Below are positions 16,473-33,845 of a stretch of DNA of 64,000 bases, in pieces. A program made the position numbers and the translations under genes. Position 1 is the stretch's first letter. Each line of letters begins with the position of its first letter. Source of the stretch: Stigmatella ashevillena. GTDB lineage: Bacteria > Myxococcota > Myxococcia > Myxococcales > Myxococcaceae. The notes below the pieces were generated by a model that did no database searches, was not told the origin of the DNA, and saw only the letters and a program-made list of their open reading frames with translations. The DNA lies in contig NZ_JAQNDM010000002.1 in NCBI RefSeq assembly GCF_028368975.1, positions 1,798,001-1,862,000 of the forward strand. The letters run 5' to 3'.

Positions 16473-16504
16473 CGGCCCCGCCCCGTGGCTCAGCGGGGCG
16501 GCCG
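16473..16504. terminator. GC hairpin between convergent genes
   Basis: CGGCCCCGCCCCG and GCGGGGCGGCCG form a strong GC stem with a small bulge around a short loop. It lies between the lipoprotein stop (16452) and the convergent RND-exporter stop, which falls within the loop and right arm. There is no T-tract on either side, so a bidirectional terminator role is only suggested by position. Confidence 0.4.
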
Positions 16505-18736
16505 CTCCGAGGGGCCGTGCGCCTGGTGCGCCAGCGACAACCAGCGGGCCAGCGCCTTGGGCGCCCACCAGTTGAAGTCTCCGAAGAGGCGCATCATCGC
16601 GGGCACGAGCAGGATGCGCACCAGCGTCGCATCCAGCGCCACCGCGATGGCCATTCCCACCCCCATCGCCTTCACCACCACCACGTGGGCCAGGGAGAAC
16701 GCGGCGAACACGGCCACCATGATGGCCGCCGCGCTCGTGATGAGCCCCCCTGTGCGCTCGAGCCCCTCGGCCACCGAGTGGGCATTGTCATGGGTCCGCT
16801 CCCACTCCTCGCGCATCCGGCTGAGCAGCAGGACCTCGTAGTCCATCGACAGGCCGAACAGGGCGCAGAAGAGGAGCACCGGCAACGAGGGCTCGATGGG
16901 ACCAGGCTCGAAGTTCAGCAGCCCGCTCAGGTGCCCCTCCTGGAAGATCCACACCAGCGCCCCGAAGGACCCCGCGATCGACAGCAGGTTCATGAGCATC
17001 GCCTTGAGCGGCAGCACCACCGAGCCGAGCAGGACAAAGAGCACCAGGCACATCAACCCCATCACGAAGCCGATGGCCCACGGGGTATGGGCCCTCACGA
17101 AGTGCCCCGCATCCACATCGCTGGCCGTCTGCCCCGCCACCAGCAGCTTCCCATCTCCGACAGCGCGCTCCTTGCGGACCGCCTCGACGATGTCCCGGGC
17201 GGCCTGGCTCGAAGCAGGCGCCTCGGTGAGCACCCTCATGACCGTCACACTGCCGTGCAGGTAGGCATCCCGGGCCTGCGAGAACTCCGGAGGCAGCATG
17301 TCCTCGGGAAAGTCCGGCAACTCCTGGTACGCGTCCCGGTCCATCGTCTCCTTGAGGTTGACGATGCTGTCGATGCCGATGACGCCCGGAATCCGTGCGA
17401 GCTGGCGGCTCTTGTCATAGAGCGCCCCCATGCGCTCCGCGGTGAACGCGCTGCCCGAGGGAAACTGCACCACCACCACCAGGCCGTTGGCGGCTTGCCG
17501 GGGAAAGAGCTGCCGGAGAGACTCCGCGCCCCGCCGGGCTTCGGTCTCCGCGGGCAGCGCGGTGATGTCGGTCGCGGCCAACTGGAGCCGCAAAAACGGC
17601 AAGCCCACCGCCACCAGGATGAGCAGCGTGGGCACCAGCACGAGCACGGGATGGCGCATGACCCAGGTGGCCAGGCCATGCCAGAGCCCCTCCTTGTCCG
17701 CAAACAACCTTGGAAAGGGAACACGGCCCCGGTTCACACGGGGGCCCAGCCAGGACAGCAGCGCCGGCAGGACGGTCAGCGCGAAGACCACCGCGAAGGC
17801 GACGACCAGGGCGCCGCCGATCCCCATCGCACTGAGGTACGAGCCCCGGTAGAACAAGAGGCCCGCGAGCCCCACGGCCACGGCGAGCCCGGAGAAGGCC
17901 ACCGCGCGCCCCGCGGTGTCGAGCGTCCGCTCCAGCGCCGCCTCGACGTTCTGCTCCCGCTCGAGCTCCGAGCGAAAGCGGCTGACAATGAAGAGCGAAT
18001 AGTCAATCGCCACCCCCATGCCAATGAGCGACACGACGTTGATCGTGTACTGGGCCATATCGGTGAAGTGCGACAACACGAACACGCCCGCCACGCCCGA
18101 GAGCACCGCGAGCCCTCCCACCGCCAACGGCAGGAGCGAGGCCACCCAAGTCCGGAAGACGCGCAGCAACACCAGCAGCGCCAGGGGAAAAGAGATGAGC
18201 TCGGCGCGCAGGAGATCCTCCTCGAGCAACTGGTTCAGCGCGTCGATGAAGGCGATCCGGCCCGTGAGGGTGGCCTGCAACGGTCCAGCGCTCAGCACCG
18301 CGCGGACCTCGGGGAAGGCGCGGGTCGCCTCGCGGATATCCCCCTTGAGCCGGACCAGCGCCAAGGTGTCATGCCCCGTGCTGGCCTGGAGCTGCGCAGC
18401 CACGGCCTTCGGCGCCCCCAGGGGGGAGAGCACCCCCTCCACCGTGGGCAGCTTCGCGACGGCCTCCAGCGTGCCCTTCAGCGCCTCCTGGAACTCCTTG
18501 CTGGTGCTGCTCAAGGTGTCCGAGTGGAAGACGACGGCGAGGGTGGTGTCGGTCGAGCCCACCGTGGTGGCCGACGCGAGCTGCTGAGCCTGCTCCGCCT
18601 CGGTGCCCTCCACGACTCCGGTGCTCAGGCGTCCCCCCCGAACGAGGGCGGCAAGGGCCAGCGCGAGGAACACGGCACTCGCAACGAACACGCGCCCCCG
18701 GTGGTGATGAATGGCCCTCGCGAGCGCGCGAAACAT
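16490..18736 (-). CDS. MMPL/RND-superfamily transporter linked to the sterol genes
   Basis: A 748-residue membrane protein with the twin MMPL architecture: one N-terminal TM helix, a periplasmic loop of about 140 residues, a block of five or six TM helices (ISFPLALLVLLRVF, SLIGMGVAIDYSLFIVSRF), a second loop (about 390-550) and a second TM block ending GLSMDYEVLLLSRMREEWE. The duplicated GxxxDY segments are the RND/MMPL proton-relay signature. Family members move lipids; HpnN moves hopanoids and BstA is an RND sterol transporter in Methylococcus. It begins 35 bases after the cyclase stop, so sterol or other polycyclic lipid export is a reasonable inference, not shown. Confidence 0.85.
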   Translation of the reverse strand: MFRALARAIHHHRGRVFVASAVFLALALAALVRGGRLSTGVVEGTEAEQAQQLASATTVGSTDTTLAVVFHSDTLSSTSKEFQEALKGTLEAVAKLPTVEGVLSPLGAPKAVAAQLQASTGHDTLALVRLKGDIREATRAFPEVRAVLSAGPLQATLTGRIAFIDALNQLLEEDLLRAELISFPLALLVLLRVFRTWVASLLPLAVGGLAVLSGVAGVFVLSHFTDMAQYTINVVSLIGMGVAIDYSLFIVSRFRSELEREQNVEAALERTLDTAGRAVAFSGLAVAVGLAGLLFYRGSYLSAMGIGGALVVAFAVVFALTVLPALLSWLGPRVNRGRVPFPRLFADKEGLWHGLATWVMRHPVLVLVPTLLILVAVGLPFLRLQLAATDITALPAETEARRGAESLRQLFPRQAANGLVVVVQFPSGSAFTAERMGALYDKSRQLARIPGVIGIDSIVNLKETMDRDAYQELPDFPEDMLPPEFSQARDAYLHGSVTVMRVLTEAPASSQAARDIVEAVRKERAVGDGKLLVAGQTASDVDAGHFVRAHTPWAIGFVMGLMCLVLFVLLGSVVLPLKAMLMNLLSIAGSFGALVWIFQEGHLSGLLNFEPGPIEPSLPVLLFCALFGLSMDYEVLLLSRMREEWERTHDNAHSVAEGLERTGGLITSAAAIMVAVFAAFSLAHVVVVKAMGVGMAIAVALDATLVRILLVPAMMRLFGDFNWWAPKALARWLSLAHQAHGPSERPPR

Positions 18737-18771: not shown

Positions 18772-20724
18772 CTACCGCTTGTCGCACACCGCGAGCGCCC
18801 AGACGGGGAAGATCCGCAGGTAGGCGTCGTAATGAATGGCACATGTCCGATTGAAGATGCCGGCAATGGGCTCCGGAGGCCAACGGCCATCCGCCTGCTG
18901 GCGCTCCCGCAGCCACCGGACGCCGCGCTGAGCCGCATCGGAGCTCTGCTCCCCGGCAGCCGCGAGCGTCAACAGCGCCCACGAGGTGTTGACGGCATGC
19001 CCCTGCTTGCCTTCCACCCACCGTGCCTGCCGACAGCTTTCGACGACCTCACTCCAGGCGCCATCGGACCGCTGGTACGAGCGAAGGAAGGCCGTGGCCC
19101 GGCGCAGGGCCATGTCCTCGGGAAGGGCGCCCGCGGCGATCAGGCCATTCACCCCGAACCACGTCCCATAGGTGAAGCAAACGCCCCAGGAGCCGATCCA
19201 CGAGCCATCCTCGCGCTGGGCCCGCCGGATGAAATCGGCCCCCCGCGCAATCGCCTGGTCCACGCGCGCATCCGGCACCGGGTGGTGCTTGCGCCAGGCG
19301 GCCAGGGCCTGCACGCAGGCCGAGGTGCACTCCACATAGCTGACGTCCACCATGATGGTGGAGAAGACATCCGAGGGGTTGAGCAGCTCGAGCAGCTTGG
19401 GGCCCCGCTGAAGCTCATACGTGGCCCAGCCCCCATCTTCGTTCTGCATCGAGAGGATGAACTGCACCGCGTCCTGGAGGCGGGCCTGGGGCACGCGGTT
19501 GAGCCCCAAGGGCTCGAGCACGAGCGAAGCCTTGAGCCCCTCGGCCGTGCAGTCGCTGATGGGCCAGCCATGGTCCCGGGTGCTGAACGGCCAGCCGCCC
19601 TTGCTGGGGTGCCGGAAGAAGCGCTGGGGCTCGGGCGTGTCCTCGAGCACCTGGTTCGCCTCGATGAACCGGGCCGCCTCTTCCAACATCGGCCGGTGGC
19701 GCTCCGTCTCCCCCGTTGCGGCCACCGCCTGAACGGCAAAGGAGGTGTCCCACAGCTCCGACGAGTTGTATCCGTTCATCCGGACGCCGTCGGCGCCCTC
19801 ATAGAAGTAGTCCGGCAAACGCTCCAGGTGGGCACGCACCTCGGGGCCCTCCGGGTTGACGAAGTGCCAGACCACCATGTTGAGCACTTTGTTGATGGGG
19901 CCGATGCAGATGTAGTGGGTGGCCTCGTCCTCGGCGCGAATCTGCTCCAGCGCGAAATCGAGCGAGCGGGCCCGCAGCCGCGCTCCCGCGAGCCGCTCAT
20001 AGCCATACATCACCTGATTGGCGGCCTTGAGCCAGAAGGTCCGGGGGGTGAAGACATCCGTCGGGGACACGCGCTCACGCGCGGCGGCCCAGTCCACCTG
20101 GGCATACGTCCCATCGAAAATCTCATGCCGGATGGCCGCCAGCAGCGGCGTCTCGGGGGCCCGGGCCTTGCGCCCATACAGCCAGCTCATGGGCAGGTAC
20201 ACCATGCGGCAATGGCACCAGAGCCTGGAGGGATGGAAGGGCAGCGACTCGGGCAACAGCCAGAGCTCGGGAGGAATCGGCTGGAGCCCCCCGTACTCAT
20301 ACAGCCCCAGCAACGCGAGGATGATCTTCCCCCACGCCCCACTGCTCAGCGGCCCTCCCCGCGGGAGGAACCACTGCCGCGCCTTGCGCAACCCGGCATC
20401 GTCCTCCCCCACTCCCAGCAGCCGGAGGGCGACGTAGTTGAGCACCGAGGTGAACACCTGGCTGGGCGCTTCGACATCCAGCCCCCAGCCCCCATCGGCG
20501 TTCTGGTGGTTGCGCAGGTAGGCGATGAGCCCCTCGCGCTGCGCGGGCTCGGGGGTACGCCCCATCACGTGCAGCCCCGTGACATAGATGGGAATGAGGA
20601 ACTGCGGCCCTCCATAGTCGCCGTACCAGGAGCCCTCGGCATCCTGGGTGGCGGCCAGCACGTCCAGCCCCCGCTGGATGACGGACACGGACTTGGGGAG
20701 CCGCTCGCCGGCGGTGACGCTCAT
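18772..20724 (-). CDS. 2,3-Oxidosqualene cyclase, cycloartenol-synthase type
   Basis: A 650-residue triterpene cyclase with repeated QW motifs (QNADGGWG, QNEDGGWATYE, QREDGSWIGSWG, QRSDGAWSE, QQADGRW). The catalytic motif is SDCTAE (Asp391), the form found in oxidosqualene cyclases, not the DxDD of squalene-hopene cyclases. Residues that steer plant cycloartenol versus lanosterol synthase are readable: Tyr319 (GYNSS), His385 (RDHGW) and Ile389 (PISD). They match plant CAS Tyr410/His477/Ile481 rather than the Thr/Cys-or-Gln/Val of lanosterol synthases. Its ATG overlaps the squalene synthase stop (ATGA). Stigmatella aurantiaca is known to carry such a cyclase and make cycloartenol. Confidence 0.92.
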   Translation of the reverse strand: MSVTAGERLPKSVSVIQRGLDVLAATQDAEGSWYGDYGGPQFLIPIYVTGLHVMGRTPEPAQREGLIAYLRNHQNADGGWGLDVEAPSQVFTSVLNYVALRLLGVGEDDAGLRKARQWFLPRGGPLSSGAWGKIILALLGLYEYGGLQPIPPELWLLPESLPFHPSRLWCHCRMVYLPMSWLYGRKARAPETPLLAAIRHEIFDGTYAQVDWAAARERVSPTDVFTPRTFWLKAANQVMYGYERLAGARLRARSLDFALEQIRAEDEATHYICIGPINKVLNMVVWHFVNPEGPEVRAHLERLPDYFYEGADGVRMNGYNSSELWDTSFAVQAVAATGETERHRPMLEEAARFIEANQVLEDTPEPQRFFRHPSKGGWPFSTRDHGWPISDCTAEGLKASLVLEPLGLNRVPQARLQDAVQFILSMQNEDGGWATYELQRGPKLLELLNPSDVFSTIMVDVSYVECTSACVQALAAWRKHHPVPDARVDQAIARGADFIRRAQREDGSWIGSWGVCFTYGTWFGVNGLIAAGALPEDMALRRATAFLRSYQRSDGAWSEVVESCRQARWVEGKQGHAVNTSWALLTLAAAGEQSSDAAQRGVRWLRERQQADGRWPPEPIAGIFNRTCAIHYDAYLRIFPVWALAVCDKR

Positions 20725-21770
20725 GGCGTCAGGCACTCTGGCTGGAGGGTCCCCGAGAGACACTGCATGTAGAGGGCGCGCAGCACCGTATCGGACGCGA
20801 CGTTCTGCTGGGTCAGCAGCATGATCTCCCGCACGGCGGCGCGGGTGATCTTCACCGGCTGCGGCTCGAAAACGGCGGGATTGTTCTCCAGCCGCGAGAG
20901 CGAGAGCACGGCGAAGAACAGGGGCCACAGACAGAACAGCCTCAGGCCAGGCTCGTCCACCGGCAGCCGCAGCGCATACTCCAGGGAGATGTCCGCCTCA
21001 CGCCGGGCCACAGCCACCAGTTCGTTGAGCATCCCCACGGCGCGGCCCCGGTTCTCCGGCTGCAACAGCGTGCGGGCGGTGAGCCCGTGCGCCGCCATGA
21101 CGGTCCTGGGCAGCCAGCAGTAGCCTCGCTCCAGATCCTCGCGGATGTCCTTGAGGATGTTGATGAGCTGCAATGCCCGGCCAAAAGCGGGCGACAGCAT
21201 CCGCAGCTCGTCTCCCTGGCGCGCGAGCTGGGGAGCGAAGCCAATGAAGAGCTCCGTCAGCATCTCGCCGACCGTCCCTGCCACGTAGTAGCAGTAGGTC
21301 AGTGTGGCCTCCAGGTCCCTCAGGCCGCTTGCAGGTGGGGCGAGCGCGAGATCCCGGCTCACGTCGGCCATGCCCTCGGCCATGGCGCGCACACACCGCG
21401 CGATGGGCGGCTGCGTCCATGACGGCAGGCCCGCGAAGGCTTCCAGTACGGTCCCCGTCCGGCGCATCAGACGCGATTCGGGCTCGGGAACGGTCTCTCG
21501 CAGCCACTCCCCTACCTGGGCGGTATAGCGAGGCACCTGATCGCGCCACCCCTCGGGCAGCTCGACGAGGCGGGCAAACTCCGAGAGGAGCTGGGCTCGC
21601 ATCGTGGCACTGCAAGTGGCCTCGTCCTCGATCGTATCCACGATGCGGCAGAGGAGGTAACCCACGGTGACGACGAGATCCAACGGCTCGGGGAGAACCG
21701 GGATATTGAGGGCGAAAGTCCGAGAGACCTCGGGCAGCGCCTCGCGGCAGAAAGCTTCAGGGTTGCTCAT
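20721..21770 (-). CDS. sqs: Squalene synthase (farnesyl-diphosphate farnesyltransferase)
   Basis: A 349-residue member of the squalene/phytoene synthase family. It has both Asp-rich motifs, DTIEDE (about residue 58) and DIREDLERGYCWLP (about 205), and YCYYVAGTVGEMLTELF, which resembles the YCHYVAGLVG of true squalene synthases. It condenses two FPP via presqualene diphosphate to squalene. Coupling to the oxidosqualene cyclase by overlapping ATGA, and the divergent squalene epoxidase 55 bases away, favour squalene over phytoene as product. ATG 21770 is the only start fitting the family N-terminus; a longer upstream frame crosses the divergent gene. Confidence 0.88.
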   Translation of the reverse strand: MSNPEAFCREALPEVSRTFALNIPVLPEPLDLVVTVGYLLCRIVDTIEDEATCSATMRAQLLSEFARLVELPEGWRDQVPRYTAQVGEWLRETVPEPESRLMRRTGTVLEAFAGLPSWTQPPIARCVRAMAEGMADVSRDLALAPPASGLRDLEATLTYCYYVAGTVGEMLTELFIGFAPQLARQGDELRMLSPAFGRALQLINILKDIREDLERGYCWLPRTVMAAHGLTARTLLQPENRGRAVGMLNELVAVARREADISLEYALRLPVDEPGLRLFCLWPLFFAVLSLSRLENNPAVFEPQPVKITRAAVREIMLLTQQNVASDTVLRALYMQCLSGTLQPECLTP

Positions 21771-21778
21771 GATGTGCC

Positions 21779-21811
21779 GCCCGTTGAGAACGGGCAAAAT
21801 TGCGCTATAGC
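21779..21811 (+). promoter_or_regulatory. Divergent promoter region with palindrome, squalene synthase / epoxidase
   Basis: The 55-base gap holds a perfect 7-bp inverted repeat with 3-base centre (GCCCGTT-GAG-AACGGGC, 21779-21795). Inside it lies TTGAGA (21784-21789), a -35-like hexamer 16 bases before TATAGC (21806-21811) for the epoxidase gene. The octamer GCTATAGC (21804-21811) is itself a palindrome, so a -10 could be read in either direction. The palindrome overlapping the -35 suggests a shared operator. The predicted start site leaves only about 8 bases before the epoxidase ATG. Confidence 0.5.
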
Positions 21812-21825
21812 AGTGAGCTGCGGCT

Positions 21826-23205
21826 ATGGGGAGCTTCTTGAATACGGACGTGGTCATCATCGGGGCAGGCCCGGCTGGCTGTGCAAGCGCGGCGGCATTG
21901 TCACACTTGGGCCATTCAATTCTTCTCGTCGATGCGGGACAGGACCGCGGCAAGCAGCTCGCGGGCGAGCTGCTCCATCCTCCCGGGGTGGAAGATTTGC
22001 GCACGCTGGGCTTTGGACCCGCGCTGGAGGCCTGTAAAGGCCAGCCCGTTCAAGGCTTCGCCGTCGTGGACACCCGGCGGGGGCGGCGAACCACCCAGCT
22101 GACCTACAATGGCTTGAGCCGGGGCCTGTCGCTCGAACACGCGCGCTTCGCGGAGAGCCTGCTGGAGGCTGTGGAACGGCTGCCCGGCGTCACCGTGTGG
22201 CGCAAGACGCGGCTCACCGCCATCCATCGCAACGATGCCGACGGCGTCGCGCTCACGGTCGTGCGCGGTGGGGAACAGCAGCAGGTGCTCACACCTCTGT
22301 TGGTGGCGGCGGACGGGCGGAGTTCCTTCGTCCGGAAGCTCCTGGGCATCGAAGAGCAGCACGAGCGGCTCTCCAGCATGGTGGGCGTGACGGTGGATGC
22401 GCAGGCCCTGCCCCATGCCGGCCACGGGCACATCTTCATTGGAGGAAACGCCCCGGTCCTCGCCTACGCCATCGAGCCCGGCGTGGCGCGGGTGATGGTC
22501 GACGTTCCCTTGGGTGCGACCGCTCAGAGATTGCACTCATCACCTGAACTTCTGAATGGGGTACCCCAACCGCTGCGAGGCGCCATTCTGGAGGCGCTCG
22601 AGCGTGAAACACCGCGGATGGCCGCCAATGACACACGCCTGCCACGCCGGGTGACCCAGGGCCGGGTCGTCCTCGTGGGAGACGCAGCGGGCTGCTGCCA
22701 CCCGGTGAGCGCCAGTGGGATGGCCTCGGGGATCAGCGACGCGATGGCGCTCCAGCAGTCGCTCCGGGAGAGCCTCCACAATGTCCCCCGCGCCCTGCGC
22801 CGCTACGTCCAGCGCCGCCGCTCGGCCCAGCGGACGCGCATCGCCCTGGCTTCTGCCCTCTATCAGGCGTTCTCCATTCAGCGCGAGGACATGGATGCCC
22901 TGAGGACGGGGCTGCTCCGCTACTGGGAGGAGAGCACCACCGGCGGGCGCAACTCGATGGAGCTGCTGTCGACGCGCGAGACGCGCATGTGGGTCATGGC
23001 GCGCGAGTACATGCGGGTGGTGGGCTATGGCATCGGCGCGCTGACTTCGGAGGCCTTCAGCCACCAGCGCCGGGACTTCGAGACCCTCATGCGAGCGGGA
23101 ACGGGCCTGCTCACTTCGGCGTTCCCCCACCTCCAGGACTCGGCGCGCGGAGGATTGGAGGACGCCTTCGCGACGTTCGCCGCCAGCAAGGAGCGGCGCC
23201 GATGA
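21826..23205 (+). CDS. Squalene monooxygenase (squalene epoxidase)-like flavoprotein
   Basis: A 459-residue class A flavoprotein monooxygenase. It has the FAD Rossmann motif VVIIGAGPAG (residues 9-18), the second FAD motif VLVGDAAGCCHPVSASGM (GD at 285-286), and QLAGELLHPPGVEDLRTLGF, closely resembling GELLQPGG of eukaryotic squalene epoxidases. It should convert squalene to 2,3-oxidosqualene, the substrate of the cyclase nearby. A geranylgeranyl-reductase-type role is the main alternative, made less likely by the cyclase's DCTAE motif, which demands an epoxide. C-terminal residues beyond 330 are helical. The start ATG lacks a good ribosome site. Confidence 0.85.
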   Translation: MGSFLNTDVVIIGAGPAGCASAAALSHLGHSILLVDAGQDRGKQLAGELLHPPGVEDLRTLGFGPALEACKGQPVQGFAVVDTRRGRRTTQLTYNGLSRGLSLEHARFAESLLEAVERLPGVTVWRKTRLTAIHRNDADGVALTVVRGGEQQQVLTPLLVAADGRSSFVRKLLGIEEQHERLSSMVGVTVDAQALPHAGHGHIFIGGNAPVLAYAIEPGVARVMVDVPLGATAQRLHSSPELLNGVPQPLRGAILEALERETPRMAANDTRLPRRVTQGRVVLVGDAAGCCHPVSASGMASGISDAMALQQSLRESLHNVPRALRRYVQRRRSAQRTRIALASALYQAFSIQREDMDALRTGLLRYWEESTTGGRNSMELLSTRETRMWVMAREYMRVVGYGIGALTSEAFSHQRRDFETLMRAGTGLLTSAFPHLQDSARGGLEDAFATFAASKERRR

Positions 23206-23438: not shown

Positions 23439-24719
23439 GGAGCCTCGCAAAAATAAATTGAGCAACTCAGGTATTATAGAAGCATGAAGAACGTTGACGA
23501 ACTGCGAACAAAGTACGAGGCGATAGCGCCGCTCCTGAACGAACGTTCTCGTCGTCGGTGGGCGGCACTAGAGGCACGTGCCTATGGATATGGTGGCATC
23601 AGTGCTGTGGCACGCGCGACAGGACTGACACGCAACACGGTGATGGCAGGACTGCGTGAACTGCAAGGCACTGAGGATGAGCCAATCTCACTGGAGCGCG
23701 TACGGCACCAAGGCGCCGGACGCAGGCGACTGGCGGTGACGGATAAGCAACTCAAACCACTTCTGGAGAAGTTGGTAAACCCAGTTACACGAGGCGATCC
23801 ACAACACCCCCTGCGTTGGACGAGCAAGAGCACGCCCCATCTTGCTGCTGAGTTGACGAAGCAGGGGCATTCTGTCAGTGCTGGCACTGTGGCGACAATG
23901 CTGAAGGCGATGGGCTTCAGCCTGCAATCTCCTCGCAAGGTACGTGAGGGCGGTTCGCACAAGGATCGAGACAAACAGTTCAGACACATCAACCGACAGA
24001 CGCAGCTATTCCAAAAGAAGGTGCAACCCGTCATATCGGTAGATACCAAGAAAAAGGAGCTTGTAGGGCTCTTCAAAAACGGAGGGCGCGAGTGGCAAGT
24101 CCATGGAAAGCCCGAGGAAGTGAACGTCTATGATTTTCCTCCTCTTGCCGAAGGCAAGGCTATCCCGTACGGAGTTTATGATGTAACACTGAACGCAGGT
24201 TGGGTGAGCGTTGGTGTCGATCACGACACGCCGCAGTTTGCTGCGAATGCGATTCGTGAGTGGTGGAAACACATGGGAAGCAAAGAGTACCCGGCAGCGA
24301 CGGAGCTACTCATCGTGTCTGACTCTGGGGGAAGCAACAGCGCTCGCTCGCGAGTATGGAAGATCGAGTTGCAGCGACTTGCCGATGACATCCGCATGCG
24401 CATCCATGTCAGCCACATGCCTCCGGGTACAAGTAAATGGAACAAGATCGAGCATCGACTCTTTTGCCACATCACGCAAAATTGGCGAGGTCGGCCGCTC
24501 ATGAGCTATGAGACAGTAGTGAGCCTCATCAGTCACACAACAACCCGCACAGGCTTGAAGGTCAAGGCAACACTTGATCGACACCTCTATCAGACGGGGA
24601 TCAAGGCGGCTGATACGGAGATGAAGGAATTACAGATCAAGCGCTCAAGATTCCATGGAGAGTGGAACTACACATTCACTCCACGCTCCGACTTGCTCAA
24701 GTAATTTTTGAGAGGCGCC
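23439..24719 (+). mobile_element. ISAzo13-family insertion sequence
   Basis: Imperfect terminal inverted repeats of 27 bp (23 of 27 identical): GGAGCCTCGCAAAAAT... at 23439-23465, and GGCGCCTCTCAAAAAT... reading in from 24719. The trinucleotide TTA lies directly outside both ends (23436-23438 and 24720-24722), consistent with a 3-bp target duplication. One full-length transposase gene fills it, and its stop codon lies inside the right repeat. The element looks intact and about 1.28 kb long. Confidence 0.8.
23484..24704 (+). CDS. ISAzo13-family transposase
   Basis: A 406-residue transposase. The N-terminus has an HTH-like region (GGISAVARATGLTRNTVMAG) and the body has a DDE-type nuclease: VISVDTKKKELVG (first Asp), LLIVSDSGGSN (second Asp) and KWNKIEHRLF (Glu). 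These are typical of the ISAzo13/Rhodopirellula-type family. Base composition is lower in G/C than surrounding housekeeping genes, indicating recent arrival. It catalyses cut-and-paste movement of the surrounding IS. The frame is uninterrupted. Confidence 0.88.
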   Translation: MKNVDELRTKYEAIAPLLNERSRRRWAALEARAYGYGGISAVARATGLTRNTVMAGLRELQGTEDEPISLERVRHQGAGRRRLAVTDKQLKPLLEKLVNPVTRGDPQHPLRWTSKSTPHLAAELTKQGHSVSAGTVATMLKAMGFSLQSPRKVREGGSHKDRDKQFRHINRQTQLFQKKVQPVISVDTKKKELVGLFKNGGREWQVHGKPEEVNVYDFPPLAEGKAIPYGVYDVTLNAGWVSVGVDHDTPQFAANAIREWWKHMGSKEYPAATELLIVSDSGGSNSARSRVWKIELQRLADDIRMRIHVSHMPPGTSKWNKIEHRLFCHITQNWRGRPLMSYETVVSLISHTTTRTGLKVKATLDRHLYQTGIKAADTEMKELQIKRSRFHGEWNYTFTPRSDLLK

Positions 24720-24722
24720 TTA

Positions 24723-25087
24723 GAGCCGTCCCAAGTGACCATCAGGGAACCACAAGGCTTTTGCGGTACCCCTGTTTCAAGGTCCGGTCCCTGCTGGAAA
24801 CATTCGAGGCGCGCCCGCTCGGTTCTGCATACGCCGACAGGTGTGGAGCGCTCACGCACCGTGCGTGAACGGACAGGCTTGCTATCCGCCTGTACCGCTA
24901 CTTTCTATCCATGCGCGCGATGCGAATCGCTCCATTGAAGGGGGGAGTAACGCCATTTGCACTTTCCGTAAGCTGCAAGTGAGAACGCTTCCTCTTTTTC
25001 AATTTTGTCCTACACAACAGCAACTTTCATCGGAACTCAGCCCATACTTGATTGCAAGTCCTAGTCTTTATTGGTTCGATAATACGC
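24723..25087. other. Intergenic stretch with a 17-base palindrome upstream of the NACHT gene
   Basis: No convincing gene. A perfect palindrome with one central base (TCACGCAC-C-GTGCGTGA, 24852-24868) could be an operator or a hairpin. Composition changes from G/C-rich to A/T-rich near 24890. A GATAAT at 25078-25083 sits too close to the NACHT start to be its -10 unless the mRNA is leaderless. No good -35 was found. Confidence 0.4.
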
Positions 25088-27406
25088 ATGTCCACTGGCA
25101 TCGAAGAACAGCTACTGGAGCACACTGCGGCTGCGGCTTTTCAACTAGTCCGAGATGGGCTCAAGGGGATGAAAGACTTCGTCGCCTACGAGAACGCAAT
25201 TCAGCGAGCAATGCGGGAGTATGCCCGAAAATTCCTGGCGCGTTACGGGAATGTCAAAATTCTCAATATGGAGCAACCTGTCCCCCTAAACGATATTTAC
25301 GTGGCTGCTGAATGGATCCCTCCTATCGAACTGAAGAGGTTCAGATCGATTGAAGAGTTGCAAGAGATGTTCCTACGTGAAGGGAGACAAGCTCGTACTC
25401 AAAGAAACCTCAGCAAGCAAAGATATGACTGTCTAGAAATAGCCAACAAGGCTCAGTTTCTCAATATTTTAGGCACCCCTGGAGCAGGCAAGTCTACATT
25501 CCTACGGCGGCTTGGCTTGGAGGCTCTGCGCCCCCGGAGCAATTGGGACGATTCCGTTCTAAGACCACTAGGCCTTAAAGCTGGCCTACCTAGCCAAGAG
25601 CGCAGTCGCTACAAGCACGATCGTTTGCCTATTCTGATCGAACTTCGTCGTTTTCGTACAGAGGAGATCGATCTCGTCAAGCTCCTTCAGCACGAACTGA
25701 CAACATGCGGATTGCCCGAGGCTGAGAGGCTCCTGAAAGCTCTCTTGAAAAAGGGACGCCTTCTGCTATTGCTTGATGGTGTTGACGAAGTTCCTGGAGA
25801 GCGGCTCGACAAAGCTATCACTCACATCCGTGACTTTGTAGATCGCAATAGCGATAATCAATTCGTCATTTCCTGTCGGACTGCGTTTTACAAGGACTAC
25901 TTCCCCAGATTCAGAGACGTACTTCTTGCTGATTTTAATGACGAGCAGATTTCCAGATTTGTCAAGAATTGGTTTAGACTTGAGCAGGACTCAAGTCATG
26001 GCATCGCTGACGAGTTTTTGAAAATTCTTGTCGATCCTGCAAATGCTTCCGCACGTGAGTTGGCTAATAGCCCCTTGCTGTTGACCTTCCTCTGCCTCGC
26101 TTATGATGATCGTCAGCATCTACCACCCAATCGAAGTGAACTTTATCGACAGGCGCTGGATATTCTGATGGAGCGCTGGGCCGCATCCAAACGTGTCCAC
26201 AATGAACCTGTCTACCGTGAACTTCATTCGCGACTGGAGGTGCAAATGCTCGCAGAAGTAGCAGCTCCTGCATTCCAAAACAACAGGTACTTCTTCACTC
26301 GTCGCGAACTAGCTTATGGAATCAGCGAGTTTTTGCGCGAAGAACTTAATGCCCCCAAGCATCTGAATGCCGATCAAGTAATAGATGCCATCGAACTTCA
26401 GCAGGGACTGCTCGTCCAGCGAGCCACTGATGCTTGGTCGTTTTCACATCTCACGCTTCAGGAATATTTAACAGCCTTATGGTACGTGGATAATCGTAAA
26501 GTTGACTTCCTCATCGACAAGCACCTGTCAGACGTTCGCTGGAGAGAAATCTTCATTCTTGCCGCCGGAATCGCTAGCAAAGCAGATGACATGCTCTTGC
26601 AGATGCAGAAAGCCTCAACTAAATTGCTAGTCAATACTCCTTGGGCTGTTCAATGCCTGAACTGGAGCACCGATAGGACTCCGCCAGCGGACAATGCCTT
26701 GCAGGGAGCAGCCAATCGTGCCTGGAGTCTTTATCTCTGCCTCGAACACGCACTCCTCACAAATGCCTCGCATAGCAGACACTCGATGGCCACTGTAGAC
26801 AAATTTGTCGCTGTAGACAAACTTGCCTTAAGCCTTTCTGTTGACCTTGCGCTTGACCGTGTTCTCAGCCGCGCCCAAGAGCACATCAACGAAATTCCCT
26901 CCAATCGCAACCCGGGCCATACAACAACTATCAATCCTCTCAACCACAACCGCAACGTCTTCTTTAATCTCATTTGCAGCTACCTGGCCCTAGAAAGCGC
27001 CGATGTCGCCATAAAAAAAGCCTTCCAAGATAGTATCCACATTAAAAATCGTGAAGAAACCATACTCCAGAGTAAAAAAATCTTAGACTCATTAAGGGAG
27101 AGCGTATATAATCTCATACAATCAGCTAGCGAAATATCAGACAACAAAGCCTTTACGACCTGGACACGTCCTTCCTCGACACTTTTCGATACGGTTCCGA
27201 AGCCACCACCTGTTCCTTCTACAACGGAATTACGTGCCCTGGAATCATACCTATACGTTTGTCAATTGATTTTGAGCTGCCAGGCTGCGGCTACACGCGT
27301 CAGCCGACCTGCTTGGGAGGATATCTGCCAGCGCATGATGACCCCTCCGGTGAAGCCATATTCTAAAATTTCTCAAGCGCGCCGCCACCGGAAGACTCGT
27401 GAATAG
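25088..27406 (+). CDS. NACHT-domain STAND NTPase, candidate anti-phage sensor
   Basis: A 772-residue protein. The N-terminal helical domain (about 1-120) includes KFLARYGNVKILNMEQPVPL, as seen in bacterial NACHT proteins. The NACHT NTPase has Walker A GTPGAGKST (129-137), Walker B LLLLLDGVDEV (Asp230) and a VISCRTAFY sensor segment, then the winged-helix/helical part (FSHLTLQEYLTALW). About 280 C-terminal residues are alpha-helical with no LRR, TPR, WD or enzyme motif that I can see. Bacterial NACHT genes protect against phages. ATG 25088 fits the family start; TTG 25052 is an alternative. It is markedly A/T-rich and flanked by mobile elements, indicating horizontal transfer. Confidence 0.85.
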   Translation: MSTGIEEQLLEHTAAAAFQLVRDGLKGMKDFVAYENAIQRAMREYARKFLARYGNVKILNMEQPVPLNDIYVAAEWIPPIELKRFRSIEELQEMFLREGRQARTQRNLSKQRYDCLEIANKAQFLNILGTPGAGKSTFLRRLGLEALRPRSNWDDSVLRPLGLKAGLPSQERSRYKHDRLPILIELRRFRTEEIDLVKLLQHELTTCGLPEAERLLKALLKKGRLLLLLDGVDEVPGERLDKAITHIRDFVDRNSDNQFVISCRTAFYKDYFPRFRDVLLADFNDEQISRFVKNWFRLEQDSSHGIADEFLKILVDPANASARELANSPLLLTFLCLAYDDRQHLPPNRSELYRQALDILMERWAASKRVHNEPVYRELHSRLEVQMLAEVAAPAFQNNRYFFTRRELAYGISEFLREELNAPKHLNADQVIDAIELQQGLLVQRATDAWSFSHLTLQEYLTALWYVDNRKVDFLIDKHLSDVRWREIFILAAGIASKADDMLLQMQKASTKLLVNTPWAVQCLNWSTDRTPPADNALQGAANRAWSLYLCLEHALLTNASHSRHSMATVDKFVAVDKLALSLSVDLALDRVLSRAQEHINEIPSNRNPGHTTTINPLNHNRNVFFNLICSYLALESADVAIKKAFQDSIHIKNREETILQSKKILDSLRESVYNLIQSASEISDNKAFTTWTRPSSTLFDTVPKPPPVPSTTELRALESYLYVCQLILSCQAAATRVSRPAWEDICQRMMTPPVKPYSKISQARRHRKTRE

Positions 27407-30374: not shown

Positions 30375-31325
30375 TTAGAGCCGCCGACCCGTCGCGCGTG
30401 TGCGCAGGTTGTCGAGCAGCACGGCGAGCAGGAGAATCACCCCGCGCACCACGTACTGGTAGAAGGCCTGGATGTTCATCAGGTTCATCACGTTCTCGGC
30501 GATGCCCATGATGAGCACCCCCACCAGCACGCCTGAGATCGCGGCCCGCCCTCCCGCCAGGGACACACCACCCAGGACACAGGCGGAGATGACCGACAGC
30601 TCGAGTCCCTGAGCAGCATTCGGCTGGCCGCTGGTGATGCGCGAGGACAGCAGGATGCCGGCCACCGCGCAGAGCAATCCCTGGAGGGTAAAGATCCAGA
30701 TCCGGATGGCCCCCACGTTGACGCCTGCCAGGCGCGAGGCATCCGGGTTGCCGCCGATGGCCAGGGTGTTGCGCCCGAACACCGTGCGGTTCAGCACGAA
30801 GCCGAAGAGCGCGAAGCAGAGCACCATGACGAGCACCGGCAGGGGAATCCCCAGCGGGGCGCTCATCGCGATGTCGAAGTAGGCCGGATCATCCACCCCC
30901 ACCGCGCGTCCGTCGGAGGCGATCAGCGCCGAGCCGCGGACAATCTGCATCGTGGCCAGCGTCGTGATGAGCGCGTTGATCCGGAGCTTGGCAATCACCA
31001 CGCCGTTGATGGCGCCCACCACCACGCCCGCCAGCAGCGCGGCCAGGATGCCGAGCAAGAGGTTCTCGGTGCTGTTGGACACCATCACCGCGACCATGCC
31101 GGCGAAGGCCACCGTCGAGCCCACGGACAGATCAAAGTCCCGCGAGGCCAGGCAGAGCATCATCGTGCAGGCGACGATGCCGATGGTGACGACGGATTGA
31201 AGCAGGCCCAGGATGTTCCGCTGCGTCATGAAGCTGGGAACCGTGACGCAGACGATGCCCAGGGCCAGCAGGAACAGGATGACGAGCCCCTGCTCTCCGA
31301 GCACGGCCCTTTTCAAGCGATCCAT
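30375..31325 (-). CDS. araH: L-arabinose-type ABC transporter permease AraH
   Basis: A 316-residue polytopic permease of the ribose/arabinose (BPD_transp_2) family, with about 10 hydrophobic segments and the SRDFDLSVGSTVAF and NAAQGLELSVISACVLGGVSLAGG motifs. It forms the membrane channel with AraG as ATPase. Its TAA stop ends exactly where the IS66 target duplication begins, so the gene is intact even though the insertion lies directly downstream. It follows araG by 12 bases. Other C5/C6 sugar permeases of the family are close alternatives. Confidence 0.85.
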   Translation of the reverse strand: MDRLKRAVLGEQGLVILFLLALGIVCVTVPSFMTQRNILGLLQSVVTIGIVACTMMLCLASRDFDLSVGSTVAFAGMVAVMVSNSTENLLLGILAALLAGVVVGAINGVVIAKLRINALITTLATMQIVRGSALIASDGRAVGVDDPAYFDIAMSAPLGIPLPVLVMVLCFALFGFVLNRTVFGRNTLAIGGNPDASRLAGVNVGAIRIWIFTLQGLLCAVAGILLSSRITSGQPNAAQGLELSVISACVLGGVSLAGGRAAISGVLVGVLIMGIAENVMNLMNIQAFYQYVVRGVILLLAVLLDNLRTRATGRRL

Positions 31326-31337
31326 TTCAACATCCTC

Positions 31338-32837
31338 TCAAGCCGCCGTCCGGTCCGGCAGCGCCGCGGCCAGGATCTTCTCCTCGGCGAAGTCAGGCCG
31401 TTGAAACTCCGCGGCGATGCGGCCGCCGCACATCACCGCGATGCGGTCGCTGATGCCCATGACCTCGGGCAGCTCACTGGAGATGACAATGAGCGCAATG
31501 CCCTGCTCGGCCAACCCGTAGAGCACATCGTAGATCTCGCTCTTGGCGCCAACGTCGATACCACGCGTGGGCTCGTCGACGATGAAGATCTTGATGCCCT
31601 GCTCGGACAGCCAGCGGGACAAGATGACCTTCTGCTGGTTGCCGCCCGACAGGTTCTCGATGGCTTGCTTGCGCGACGGGGTCCGCACCCCCAACCGCTG
31701 GATGAAGGACTCGGCCATCTCGCCTTCCCGCCGGGTGTTCAGGATGCCGAAGGGCGAGAAGTGGCGGCGCGAGGAGATGGCGATGTTCTCCTCCACCGAC
31801 TGGCCCTGAAGAATGCCATCGGCCTTGCGGTCCTCGGGACACAGCACGAGGCCCGCGCGCACCGCCTGCCGGGGATGATGAATGTGAACCGGAACCCCAT
31901 CGATGCGCAGCTCGCCCGCGTGGCGTTTGTCAGCCCCATACAGGAGCCGCGCCAGCTCGCTGCGGCCGGCGCCCACCAGCCCGAAGAAGCCGAGGATCTC
32001 CCCCGCGCGAACCTCGAACCCCGAGGGGGCCGTCAGGCGCGAGCCCTCCAGTCCCGAGACGGAGAGGCGCACCGCGCCGGGCGTGCGGGCCCTCCAGCCC
32101 CAGATATCCTGGATCTCCCGGCCCACCATCTCCCGCACCAGCACCTCGCGCGTCAGCCCCTGCAAGGTGTCGTGCTGGGCCACCAACCGGCCATCCCGCA
32201 GCACGACGCAGCCATCACACAGGCGGAAGATCTCATCCAACCGGTGGGAGACATACAGGATGACCTTGCCGGCCGCGCGCAGCCGGTCCACCAGCCGGAA
32301 GAGGACTTCGCTCTCATGGGCAGACAGAGACGAGGTGGGCTCGTCCAGGGCGATGACCGAGGCGTCGAAGATGGCGGCCTTGGCGATCTCCACCATCTGC
32401 CGGGTGCCCAGTGACAGCTCGGCGACCTTGGCCTGGGGATTCACGTCGATGCCGGCCTCCCGCAGCACCGCACCGACCTTGGCGAACAGCTCCTTGAAGC
32501 GGACGACCCCGAACCGGGAGGGAAAGCGACCCAGCATGAGGTTCTCGGCCACCGTCAGCTCCGGCACGAGCTGAAGCTCCTGATGAACGACGGTCACCCC
32601 GGCGGCGATGGAATCGCGCGTCGAGGCAAAGCGATGCGCTTTTCCGCCGATGCGCAGCTCGCCCGTCTCGGGGGTGTAATCCCCCCCGAGGATCTTGATG
32701 AGCGTGGACTTGCCCGCGCCGTTCTCACCCAGCAGCCCAATGACCCGCCCCGCGGGGACCGAGAAGCTCAGCTCCTTGAGGGCCCGGACGCCGGGAAAGC
32801 TCTTGGTGATGTTCGTGAACTCGAGAAACGGCGCCAT
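31338..32837 (-). CDS. araG: L-arabinose-type ABC transporter ATPase AraG
   Basis: A 499-residue duplicated sugar ATPase. The first cassette has GENGAGKST, the signature-like LSLGTRQ and VIALDEPTSSLS. The second has a degenerate Walker A (GLVGAGRSE, usual in this family), the intact signature NLSGGNQQKV and IFIVDEPTRGID. These proteins energise monosaccharide import. It lies between araF and araH with short gaps. No arabinose catabolic genes accompany it. Confidence 0.87.
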   Translation of the reverse strand: MAPFLEFTNITKSFPGVRALKELSFSVPAGRVIGLLGENGAGKSTLIKILGGDYTPETGELRIGGKAHRFASTRDSIAAGVTVVHQELQLVPELTVAENLMLGRFPSRFGVVRFKELFAKVGAVLREAGIDVNPQAKVAELSLGTRQMVEIAKAAIFDASVIALDEPTSSLSAHESEVLFRLVDRLRAAGKVILYVSHRLDEIFRLCDGCVVLRDGRLVAQHDTLQGLTREVLVREMVGREIQDIWGWRARTPGAVRLSVSGLEGSRLTAPSGFEVRAGEILGFFGLVGAGRSELARLLYGADKRHAGELRIDGVPVHIHHPRQAVRAGLVLCPEDRKADGILQGQSVEENIAISSRRHFSPFGILNTRREGEMAESFIQRLGVRTPSRKQAIENLSGGNQQKVILSRWLSEQGIKIFIVDEPTRGIDVGAKSEIYDVLYGLAEQGIALIVISSELPEVMGISDRIAVMCGGRIAAEFQRPDFAEEKILAAALPDRTAA

Positions 32838-32858
32838 ACGCCTCCCAGACAGCAGCGG

Positions 32859-33845
32859 TTACTGGAGGCCGAGTTCCTTGCGCACCGCTTGGTAGGACTC
32901 ACGCGTCGCCAGCTTGCCGGAGGTGAGGATGAGCTTCTCCGGCTCCTTGTTCGACGTGATCCAGTTGTACATGTTGAGCGCCGTCTCATACCCATGGCGC
33001 TTCGGCGAGATGATGACACTGCCGTAGAACCCCGTCGGGGCGGGCTTCTTGAACTCATTGATGGCCGCATCCGAGCCGCCGATGCCCACGGCGATCACGT
33101 CCGTGGCCTTCAGCCCCGCCGCCTCGGACGCCCGGACGGCACCGAGCACCGCCTCGTCATTGAGACCAAACGCCACCCACTTCTTGATGCTGGCATTCTT
33201 GTTGAGAACCACGGTGGCTGCATTCAATGCCGCTTCCGTGTCGGTCTTGCTCTGGGGCGCATCGAAGATATTCGACGCCACGAAGCCATTCTGCTTCAGC
33301 ACGGAGATGGCTCCCTCGACGCGGTCCTTGGCGGTGGGAAGTTGATCATAGGACACGCGGATGGCCCCCACCTCCTTCAGGTTCCAGCCACGGGCTTTGA
33401 TCTGATCCACGATGGCTTGCCCCACGGCCTCGCCAATCTTGGTGGCCGAGATGCCCATGTGCGGCACGTTCTCGAGCGGCTTGCCCTTGCTGTTCACCAG
33501 CCGGTCATCCACCGTCATGAGCTTGAGCTGGTTGGCGGTGGCACGCGCCACCAACCCCGGCCCCAGCTTGACGTCTGGGGTGCAAATCACCACGCCTTGA
33601 GCGCCTTGGGCACCCAGGTTGTCGATGGCTGACAATGCTTTCTCGCCGTCCTCAGCGCCAATCTTGACCAGGGTAAAGCCCTTCTCCTTGGCCGCGATGT
33701 CCGCAAACTTCCATTCATCCTGGAACCAGGGCTCCTCGGGCTGTTTGACGACGAAGCCAATCTTGACATCGGCAGCAGAGGACGCAGTCGACGCCATGAG
33801 CACAGACATGGCACAAGCCATGAACAGCTTTTTCACGAAGCGCAT
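32859..33845 (-). CDS. araF: L-arabinose-binding periplasmic protein AraF-like
   Basis: A 328-residue periplasmic binding protein with a signal peptide (MRFVKKLFMACAMSVLMAST, cleavage after ASSA). The mature start (KIGFVVKQPEEPWFQDEWKF) is very close in pattern to E. coli AraF (LKLGFLVKQPEEPWFQTEWKF as I recall it). It also shares VICTPDVKLGPGLVA and AVGIGGSDA. It delivers L-arabinose (possibly also fucose or galactose) to AraGH. It is the first gene of the operon, with its own upstream region. Confidence 0.88.
   Translation of the reverse strand: MRFVKKLFMACAMSVLMASTASSAADVKIGFVVKQPEEPWFQDEWKFADIAAKEKGFTLVKIGAEDGEKALSAIDNLGAQGAQGVVICTPDVKLGPGLVARATANQLKLMTVDDRLVNSKGKPLENVPHMGISATKIGEAVGQAIVDQIKARGWNLKEVGAIRVSYDQLPTAKDRVEGAISVLKQNGFVASNIFDAPQSKTDTEAALNAATVVLNKNASIKKWVAFGLNDEAVLGAVRASEAAGLKATDVIAVGIGGSDAAINEFKKPAPTGFYGSVIISPKRHGYETALNMYNWITSNKEPEKLILTSGKLATRESYQAVRKELGLQ

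Follow-up and report, generated by a model that had tools for sequence, protein, structure and literature searches.

A predicted cycloartenol synthase in a sterol-start locus of Stigmatella ashevillena

Cycloartenol has been reported from several bacteria, namely Stigmatella, Cystobacter fuscus, Fluviicola taffensis and Methyloceanibacter caenitepidi (Wei et al. 2016, PMC4919349), so that the preliminary description of the DNA studied here was right in calling the compound known from Stigmatella, with the other producers to be set beside that genus. For Stigmatella aurantiaca, the SE gene STAUR_5420 and the Osc gene STAUR_5418 are given in Table 4 of that paper, STAUR_2030 is listed under ERG11, and the species is entered with squalene and cycloartenol only, after Bode 2003 (PMC4919349). 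In Cystobacter fuscus, also a cycloartenol producer, the cyclase D187_003104 is classed as Cas and the SE gene is two gene numbers away (PMC4919349); it is by this description that we liken it to the enzyme studied here. For two lanosterol makers, Enhygromyxa salina and Plesiocystis pacifica, Table 3 of the same paper seems to be marked with a plus for cycloartenol too, and its text speaks of lanosterol rather than cycloartenol (PMC4919349). In addition, a 2025 paper treats the Myxococcaceae cyclases as predicted cycloartenol synthases which are apparently vertically inherited (PMC12004948). Both the cycloartenol of Stigmatella and Cystobacter and the predicted cycloartenol synthases of Myxococcaceae are already in print.

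Here we examine a cyclase gene in a window of 64,000 nucleotides (C2:1798001-1862000) from Stigmatella ashevillena, whose 10.95-Mb genome is in two contigs. The enzyme belongs to the same class as the cycloartenol synthase STAUR_5418 of S. aurantiaca, and the single gene number between STAUR_5420 and STAUR_5418 fits the SE-SQS-OSC gene order of the window (PMC4919349). The window cyclase is an ordinary ortholog of a known bacterial enzyme; the observation is confirmed and is not new, and the window extends the set of well-supported cycloartenol-type loci in Myxococcaceae by one.

The cyclase gene and its sterol-start locus

The gene for the oxidosqualene cyclase, a predicted cycloartenol synthase, lies at 18772..20724 on the minus strand, and its reading frame runs from the ATG at 20724 to the stop at 18772 and is translated into 650 amino acids. 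In the NCBIfam scan the protein scores 1058.8 bits with TIGR03463 (2,3-oxidosqualene cyclase), over the cut-off of 851, and 270.4 bits with TIGR01507 (squalene-hopene cyclase), under the cut-off of 431.1. The motif DCTAE stands at residues 391-395, a place where DxDD is not present and where the hopene-cyclase-like comparison rows have DVDD or DLDD. The enzyme is a TIGR03463-type oxidosqualene cyclase and not a squalene-hopene cyclase, and the earlier reading of DCTAE rather than DxDD is upheld. Of 81 loci, that of the window among them, all retain Asp391 and Cys392, and 80 retain Cys466, which a hand count equates with chain residue 533 of 1w6k. The solved structures matching best by phmmer are those of lanosterol synthase, 1w6k and 1w6j (621 and 620 bits); 1w6k, which we take to be the human enzyme, is a full-length homolog sharing DCTAE and Cys533. 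The profile search finds one match to TIGR03463 in the strain's own genome and, since the same search finds hopene-cyclase-like genes in other genomes, this genome can be regarded as being without a detected second cyclase of the superfamily. An open frame of 646 amino acids runs antisense to the cyclase (18832-20772, plus strand) and is likely a by-product of high G+C content.

The cyclase gene sits in a sterol-start locus with squalene synthase and squalene-epoxidase-like genes, where gene families and gene order, like the catalytic residues and the three residues treated below, are directly read. The squalene synthase gene (SQS_PSY family; 20721..21770, minus strand; 349 amino acids from the Met at 21770) matches PF00494 with 168.1 bits, and the best NCBIfam match of its protein is TIGR01559 squalene synthase with 118.5 bits, below the cut-off of 286.75; its TGA overlaps the ATG of the cyclase gene by 4 bases (ATGA). 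A gap of 55 bases (21771..21825), likely the site of the promoters of both divergent genes as we predict, separates it from a gene for a squalene-epoxidase-like FAD enzyme of 459 amino acids (21826..23205, plus strand). In the latter, PF01494 (117.8 bits) and PF08491 (Squalene epoxidase, 97.9 bits) are both over cut-off, and it is on PF08491 of Pfam that the name squalene epoxidase rests; in NCBIfam the UbiH/COQ6 hydroxylase subfamily matches best, with 119.3 bits under a cut-off of 224.65, and no squalene epoxidase model is among the best 25 of 79 NCBIfam matches. On the other side, 35 bases downstream of the cyclase and on the same strand, stands a gene for an MMPL-family transporter (16490..18736, minus strand; PF03176, 251.8 bits), whose role in sterol handling is putative and unproven.

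This arrangement was compared across the 30 family loci L082-L111, among which is that of the window, with flanks of about 1.5 kb; L110 stops at the cyclase. Squalene synthase is near the cyclase in 27 of the 30 and epoxidase in 28; the MMPL gene is directly beside the cyclase only in the 4 same-genus loci, among them the window's own. In several other genomes an MMPL gene stands about 4 kb from the cyclase, past the epoxidase. In two loci, L009 and L014, the epoxidase gene stands between those of the cyclase and squalene synthase, which suggests local rearrangement.

In respect of later sterol steps, the profiles Sterol_MT_C and ERG4_ERG24 have no match in the strain's own genome, and the controls are likewise without match. 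The P450 profile gives 18 matches there, two of them overlapping in one place; no CYP51 model is among the NCBIfam matches of the two best P450s of the 18, from a library that may hold none.

Just past the epoxidase-like gene lies an ISAzo13-family transposase gene (23484-24704; NF033519, 571.8 bits). Between it and an IS66 transposase gene stands a gene (25052-27406) whose protein weakly matches EruA, a NACHT antiphage protein (39.7 bits, cut-off 1000). Further along, at 30375-33845 on the minus strand, are L-arabinose-type ABC transporter genes, of which AraH and AraG are over their cut-offs and which include a weakly matching sugar-binding protein.

The three product columns and the predicted product

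In the phmmer alignment to 1w6k, with DCTAE lying on DCTAE, Y319 corresponds to T381, H385 to C449 and I389 to V453. The columns were counted by hand on the printed alignment from the anchors of query 324 on 1w6k 386 and query 325 on 387, the chain then having two additional residues before H385. The preliminary description had named Tyr319, His385 and Ile389 as the residues at the product-setting sites; a script check and this alignment place all three in the product columns, and the comparison with the human lanosterol synthase brings no other residues there. Because the columns are fixed by homology, chance is no concern for the triad. Plant-type cycloartenol synthases have Tyr/His/Ile in these three columns (Wei et al. 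2016, PMC4919349), as the window enzyme does, in contrast to Thr381/Cys449/Val453 of 1w6k. The set of Thr, Cys or Gln, and Val formerly ascribed to lanosterol synthases in general describes the eukaryotic enzymes; in bacteria, Tyr or His can occur with Val.

For bacteria the third column is the telling one. Where lipids were matched to sequences, the bacteria tested had I453 if they made cycloartenol and V453 if they made lanosterol (PMC4919349), and the window enzyme has Ile (I389) in the column of human residue 453. The prediction of cycloartenol, which had been presented as an analogy with plants only, is therefore supported by bacterial chemistry too. Tyr and His, on the other hand, are poor product markers in bacteria, since each of them stands with Val453 in some cyclases of the methanotroph order, and the full plant triad adds little there beyond Ile453, Tyr and His being common to Val-type cyclases. 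We consider it highly probable that the gene encodes a Myxococcaceae oxidosqualene cyclase, inherited within the family, with cycloartenol as its predicted product.

Oxidosqualene cyclases work by protonation from an Asp, a cation cascade and a final proton loss, which is taken from C19 in the formation of cycloartenol. In the window, squalene synthase would join two farnesyl diphosphates into squalene, and the divergent FAD enzyme would turn squalene into 2,3-oxidosqualene. Asp391, with Cys392 and Cys466 behind it, would then protonate the epoxide, and the cyclase would fold the substrate into the protosteryl cation. Once hydride and methyl groups have shifted, the Tyr/His/Ile pocket may favour proton loss from C19, which would close the 9,19-cyclopropane and give cycloartenol rather than lanosterol. 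In this scheme the product, the proton loss and the activity of each neighbour are deduced from published chemistry together with the established enzyme mechanism.

It might be supposed that the enzyme makes a mixture, in which cycloartenol is joined by lanosterol or parkeol in real amounts because the proton loss is steered by residues beyond the triad as well. Some Cystobacter strains are reported with lanosterol, so that strains of this genus vary and either product has been found, Gemmata makes both lanosterol and parkeol, and the triad itself rests on mutagenesis of eukaryotic enzymes (PMC4919349). However, S. aurantiaca is listed in that paper with no more than squalene and cycloartenol (PMC4919349), and a same-genus enzyme is 94% identical to the query, by which we judge a mixture quite improbable. 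It is likewise unlikely that the strain carries the gene but, during normal growth, leaves it unexpressed or without activity. Such a case appears to exist in Corallococcus coralloides, which has an SE gene and a cyclase classed as Cas and yet is described as giving only squalene in culture, with no sterols (PMC4919349), so that the gene does not guarantee the lipid. Against silence in the present strain stand the intact catalytic residues and neighbouring reading frames and the reported cycloartenol of S. aurantiaca (PMC4919349); moreover, silence would leave the product of the enzyme unchanged.

Distribution and descent of the cyclase

Within Myxococcaceae the best match reaches an E-value of 1e-140 or better in 47 of 96 genomes, the TIGR03463 cut-off is passed in 28 of 96, and the cyclase is present in 4 of the 7 genomes of the genus, the window included. 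By alignment the triad could be read in all 47 long-match genomes, giving Y/H/I in 46 and Y/Q/V in one (L189 of genome G051, likely the same gene as L025). A plant-type triad is thus the rule in this family, and the view of it as remarkable here finds no support. The closest enzyme, from the same-genus genome G037, is 94.0% identical and has the same triad, followed by those of G036 and G038 with 86.5-86.6%.

Outside the family, 62 of 99 genomes of the phylum were taken for the search, and long matches occur in 8 of the 62, with Y/H/I in three, A/H/V in two, and Y/N/V, Y/Q/V and Y/N/T in one each, the last being L140 of genome G165. Y/H/I is also found in loci labelled Bacteroidota, Hyphomicrobiaceae, Spirochaetota and Verrucomicrobiota. 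Among the best 80 of 462 relatives, taken from named records, a sample which leans towards the query and in which some entries are the same genes as loci from the genome searches, 74 carry Y/H/I, four Y/Q/V, one E/Q/V and one Y/N/V. These numbers do not conflict with the assertion that lanosterol is the product of most bacterial sterol makers, Y/H/I being seen outside the family in 3 of 8 long matches of the phylum and in 2 of 40 cyclases of the methanotroph order, and the larger sample being the one that leans towards the query. In 195 phylum genomes the DNA pattern D-H-G-W-x-I was found in 5 genomes and D-H-G-W-x-V in none; such counts are no survey, for the first Asp of the pattern varies, the His being preceded by A, E, P, K and other residues, and the alignment-based reading of the triad replaced them.

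A tree was built from 100 cyclases, three identical pairs among them, and 4 hopene-cyclase-like rows. The 100 include 6 of the 20 methanotroph loci then read and 5 of 33 family loci; 33 later-fetched loci stand outside the tree, which is without plant rows. It was made by a quick method without bootstrap, and 26 of 98 inner branches have support under 80. The window enzyme groups with two same-genus rows (support 100) within a 19-row Myxococcaceae clade (SH-aLRT 99), nesting with Corallococcus, Myxococcus and Citreicoccus, among rows that include no named lipid-tested producer. The deepest rows (A/H/V and Y/N/V) carry Val, and consequently the tree does not show Y/H/I to be ancestral.

These data also bear on the idea that the bacterium recently acquired a cycloartenol synthase from a plant; older papers, according to Wei et al., took the Stigmatella enzyme to be probably plant-derived (PMC4919349). 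The nesting with Corallococcus, Myxococcus and Citreicoccus, on a tree free of plant rows, and the presence of Y/H/I in the four other bacterial groups named above speak against such an origin. Weak evidence in the same direction is the higher phmmer score of 1w6k (621 bits) against that of 8j5z (475 bits), named 'Terpene cyclase/mutase family member' and presumably a protein of plant origin, which is not known to be a cycloartenol synthase. We rejected the transfer on the nesting within Myxococcaceae in that plant-free tree and hold it to be extremely improbable.

Val-type cyclases and the paired columns 449 and 453

The order around a Methylothermaceae genome, which we take to be Methylococcales, offers the main comparison with Val453. 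There, 28 of 101 genomes are over the TIGR03463 cut-off and 12 more have 575 to 751 bits. The 40 cyclases read comprise 29 A/H/V, 5 Y/N/V, 4 Y/Q/V and 2 Y/H/I, so that Val453 is accompanied by His449 in 29 of the 40 and by Tyr381 in 9. The pairing with Tyr381 is seen in other lineages as well; column 381 is unsure in the A/H/V rows, as the Ala adjoins a one-residue gap. All 28 over-cut-off members have His449 and Val453 (A/H/V) and are 35.4-39.6% identical to the query; they share TIGR03463 with it but differ in having His/Val where it has His/Ile. The top TIGR03463 score, 1184.9 bits, falls in a Val453 group, and hence a match to this model is not informative on product. For the Methylococcales tested by Wei et al., dimethyl and methyl sterols are listed, and cycloartenol is not in that list (PMC4919349); a bacterial Y,H,V triad is spoken of in PMC5101207.

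Nine cyclases of this order (L212-L220) differ from its A/H/V members in having Y/N/V or Y/Q/V, and their identity to the query is about 41-42%. Three from Methylothermaceae genomes (L040:8001-9977, L046:8001-9932 and L211) have Y/H/I with DCTAL in the place of DCTAE; on the tree, L040 and L046 are placed together with enzymes from Bacteroidota.

Among the 100 tree cyclases, columns 449 and 453 read H-I in 83, H-V in 8, Q-V in 6, N-V in 2 and N-T in 1. All 8 H-V rows are those of the A/H/V group; the other 92 rows (91 with Tyr, one with Glu) contain no H-V, Q-I or N-I, and the same holds for 24 further Tyr rows outside the tree. At least six changes are needed on the tree at each of the two columns. 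With the 92 rows, five independent pairs on well-supported branches differ at 449, and 453 changes too in all five; when the full 100 rows are taken, it changes with 449 in four or five of the five. By the sign test, paired change has a p of 0.0625, the lowest that five pairs can give.

A tentative reading, which we regard as possible and somewhat less than an even chance, is that outside the Ala/His/Val cyclases His449/Ile453 is one switch, repeatedly changed between cycloartenol and lanosterol states; the window enzyme would then be in the cycloartenol state. Under this reading the pair would have turned together to Gln/Val, independently in several lineages, and a single time to Asn/Thr, Asn/Val making up further cases of either direction. 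If the paired changes hold up, bacteria would provide natural test cases for the switching of product choice. A natural comparison is the Y/Q/V cyclase L047:8001-9905 of a Myxococcota genome, which is 48.5% identical to the query and keeps the SE-SQS-OSC order, together with L138, the same sequence as L047 on the tree; L047 also has an MMPL gene further off.
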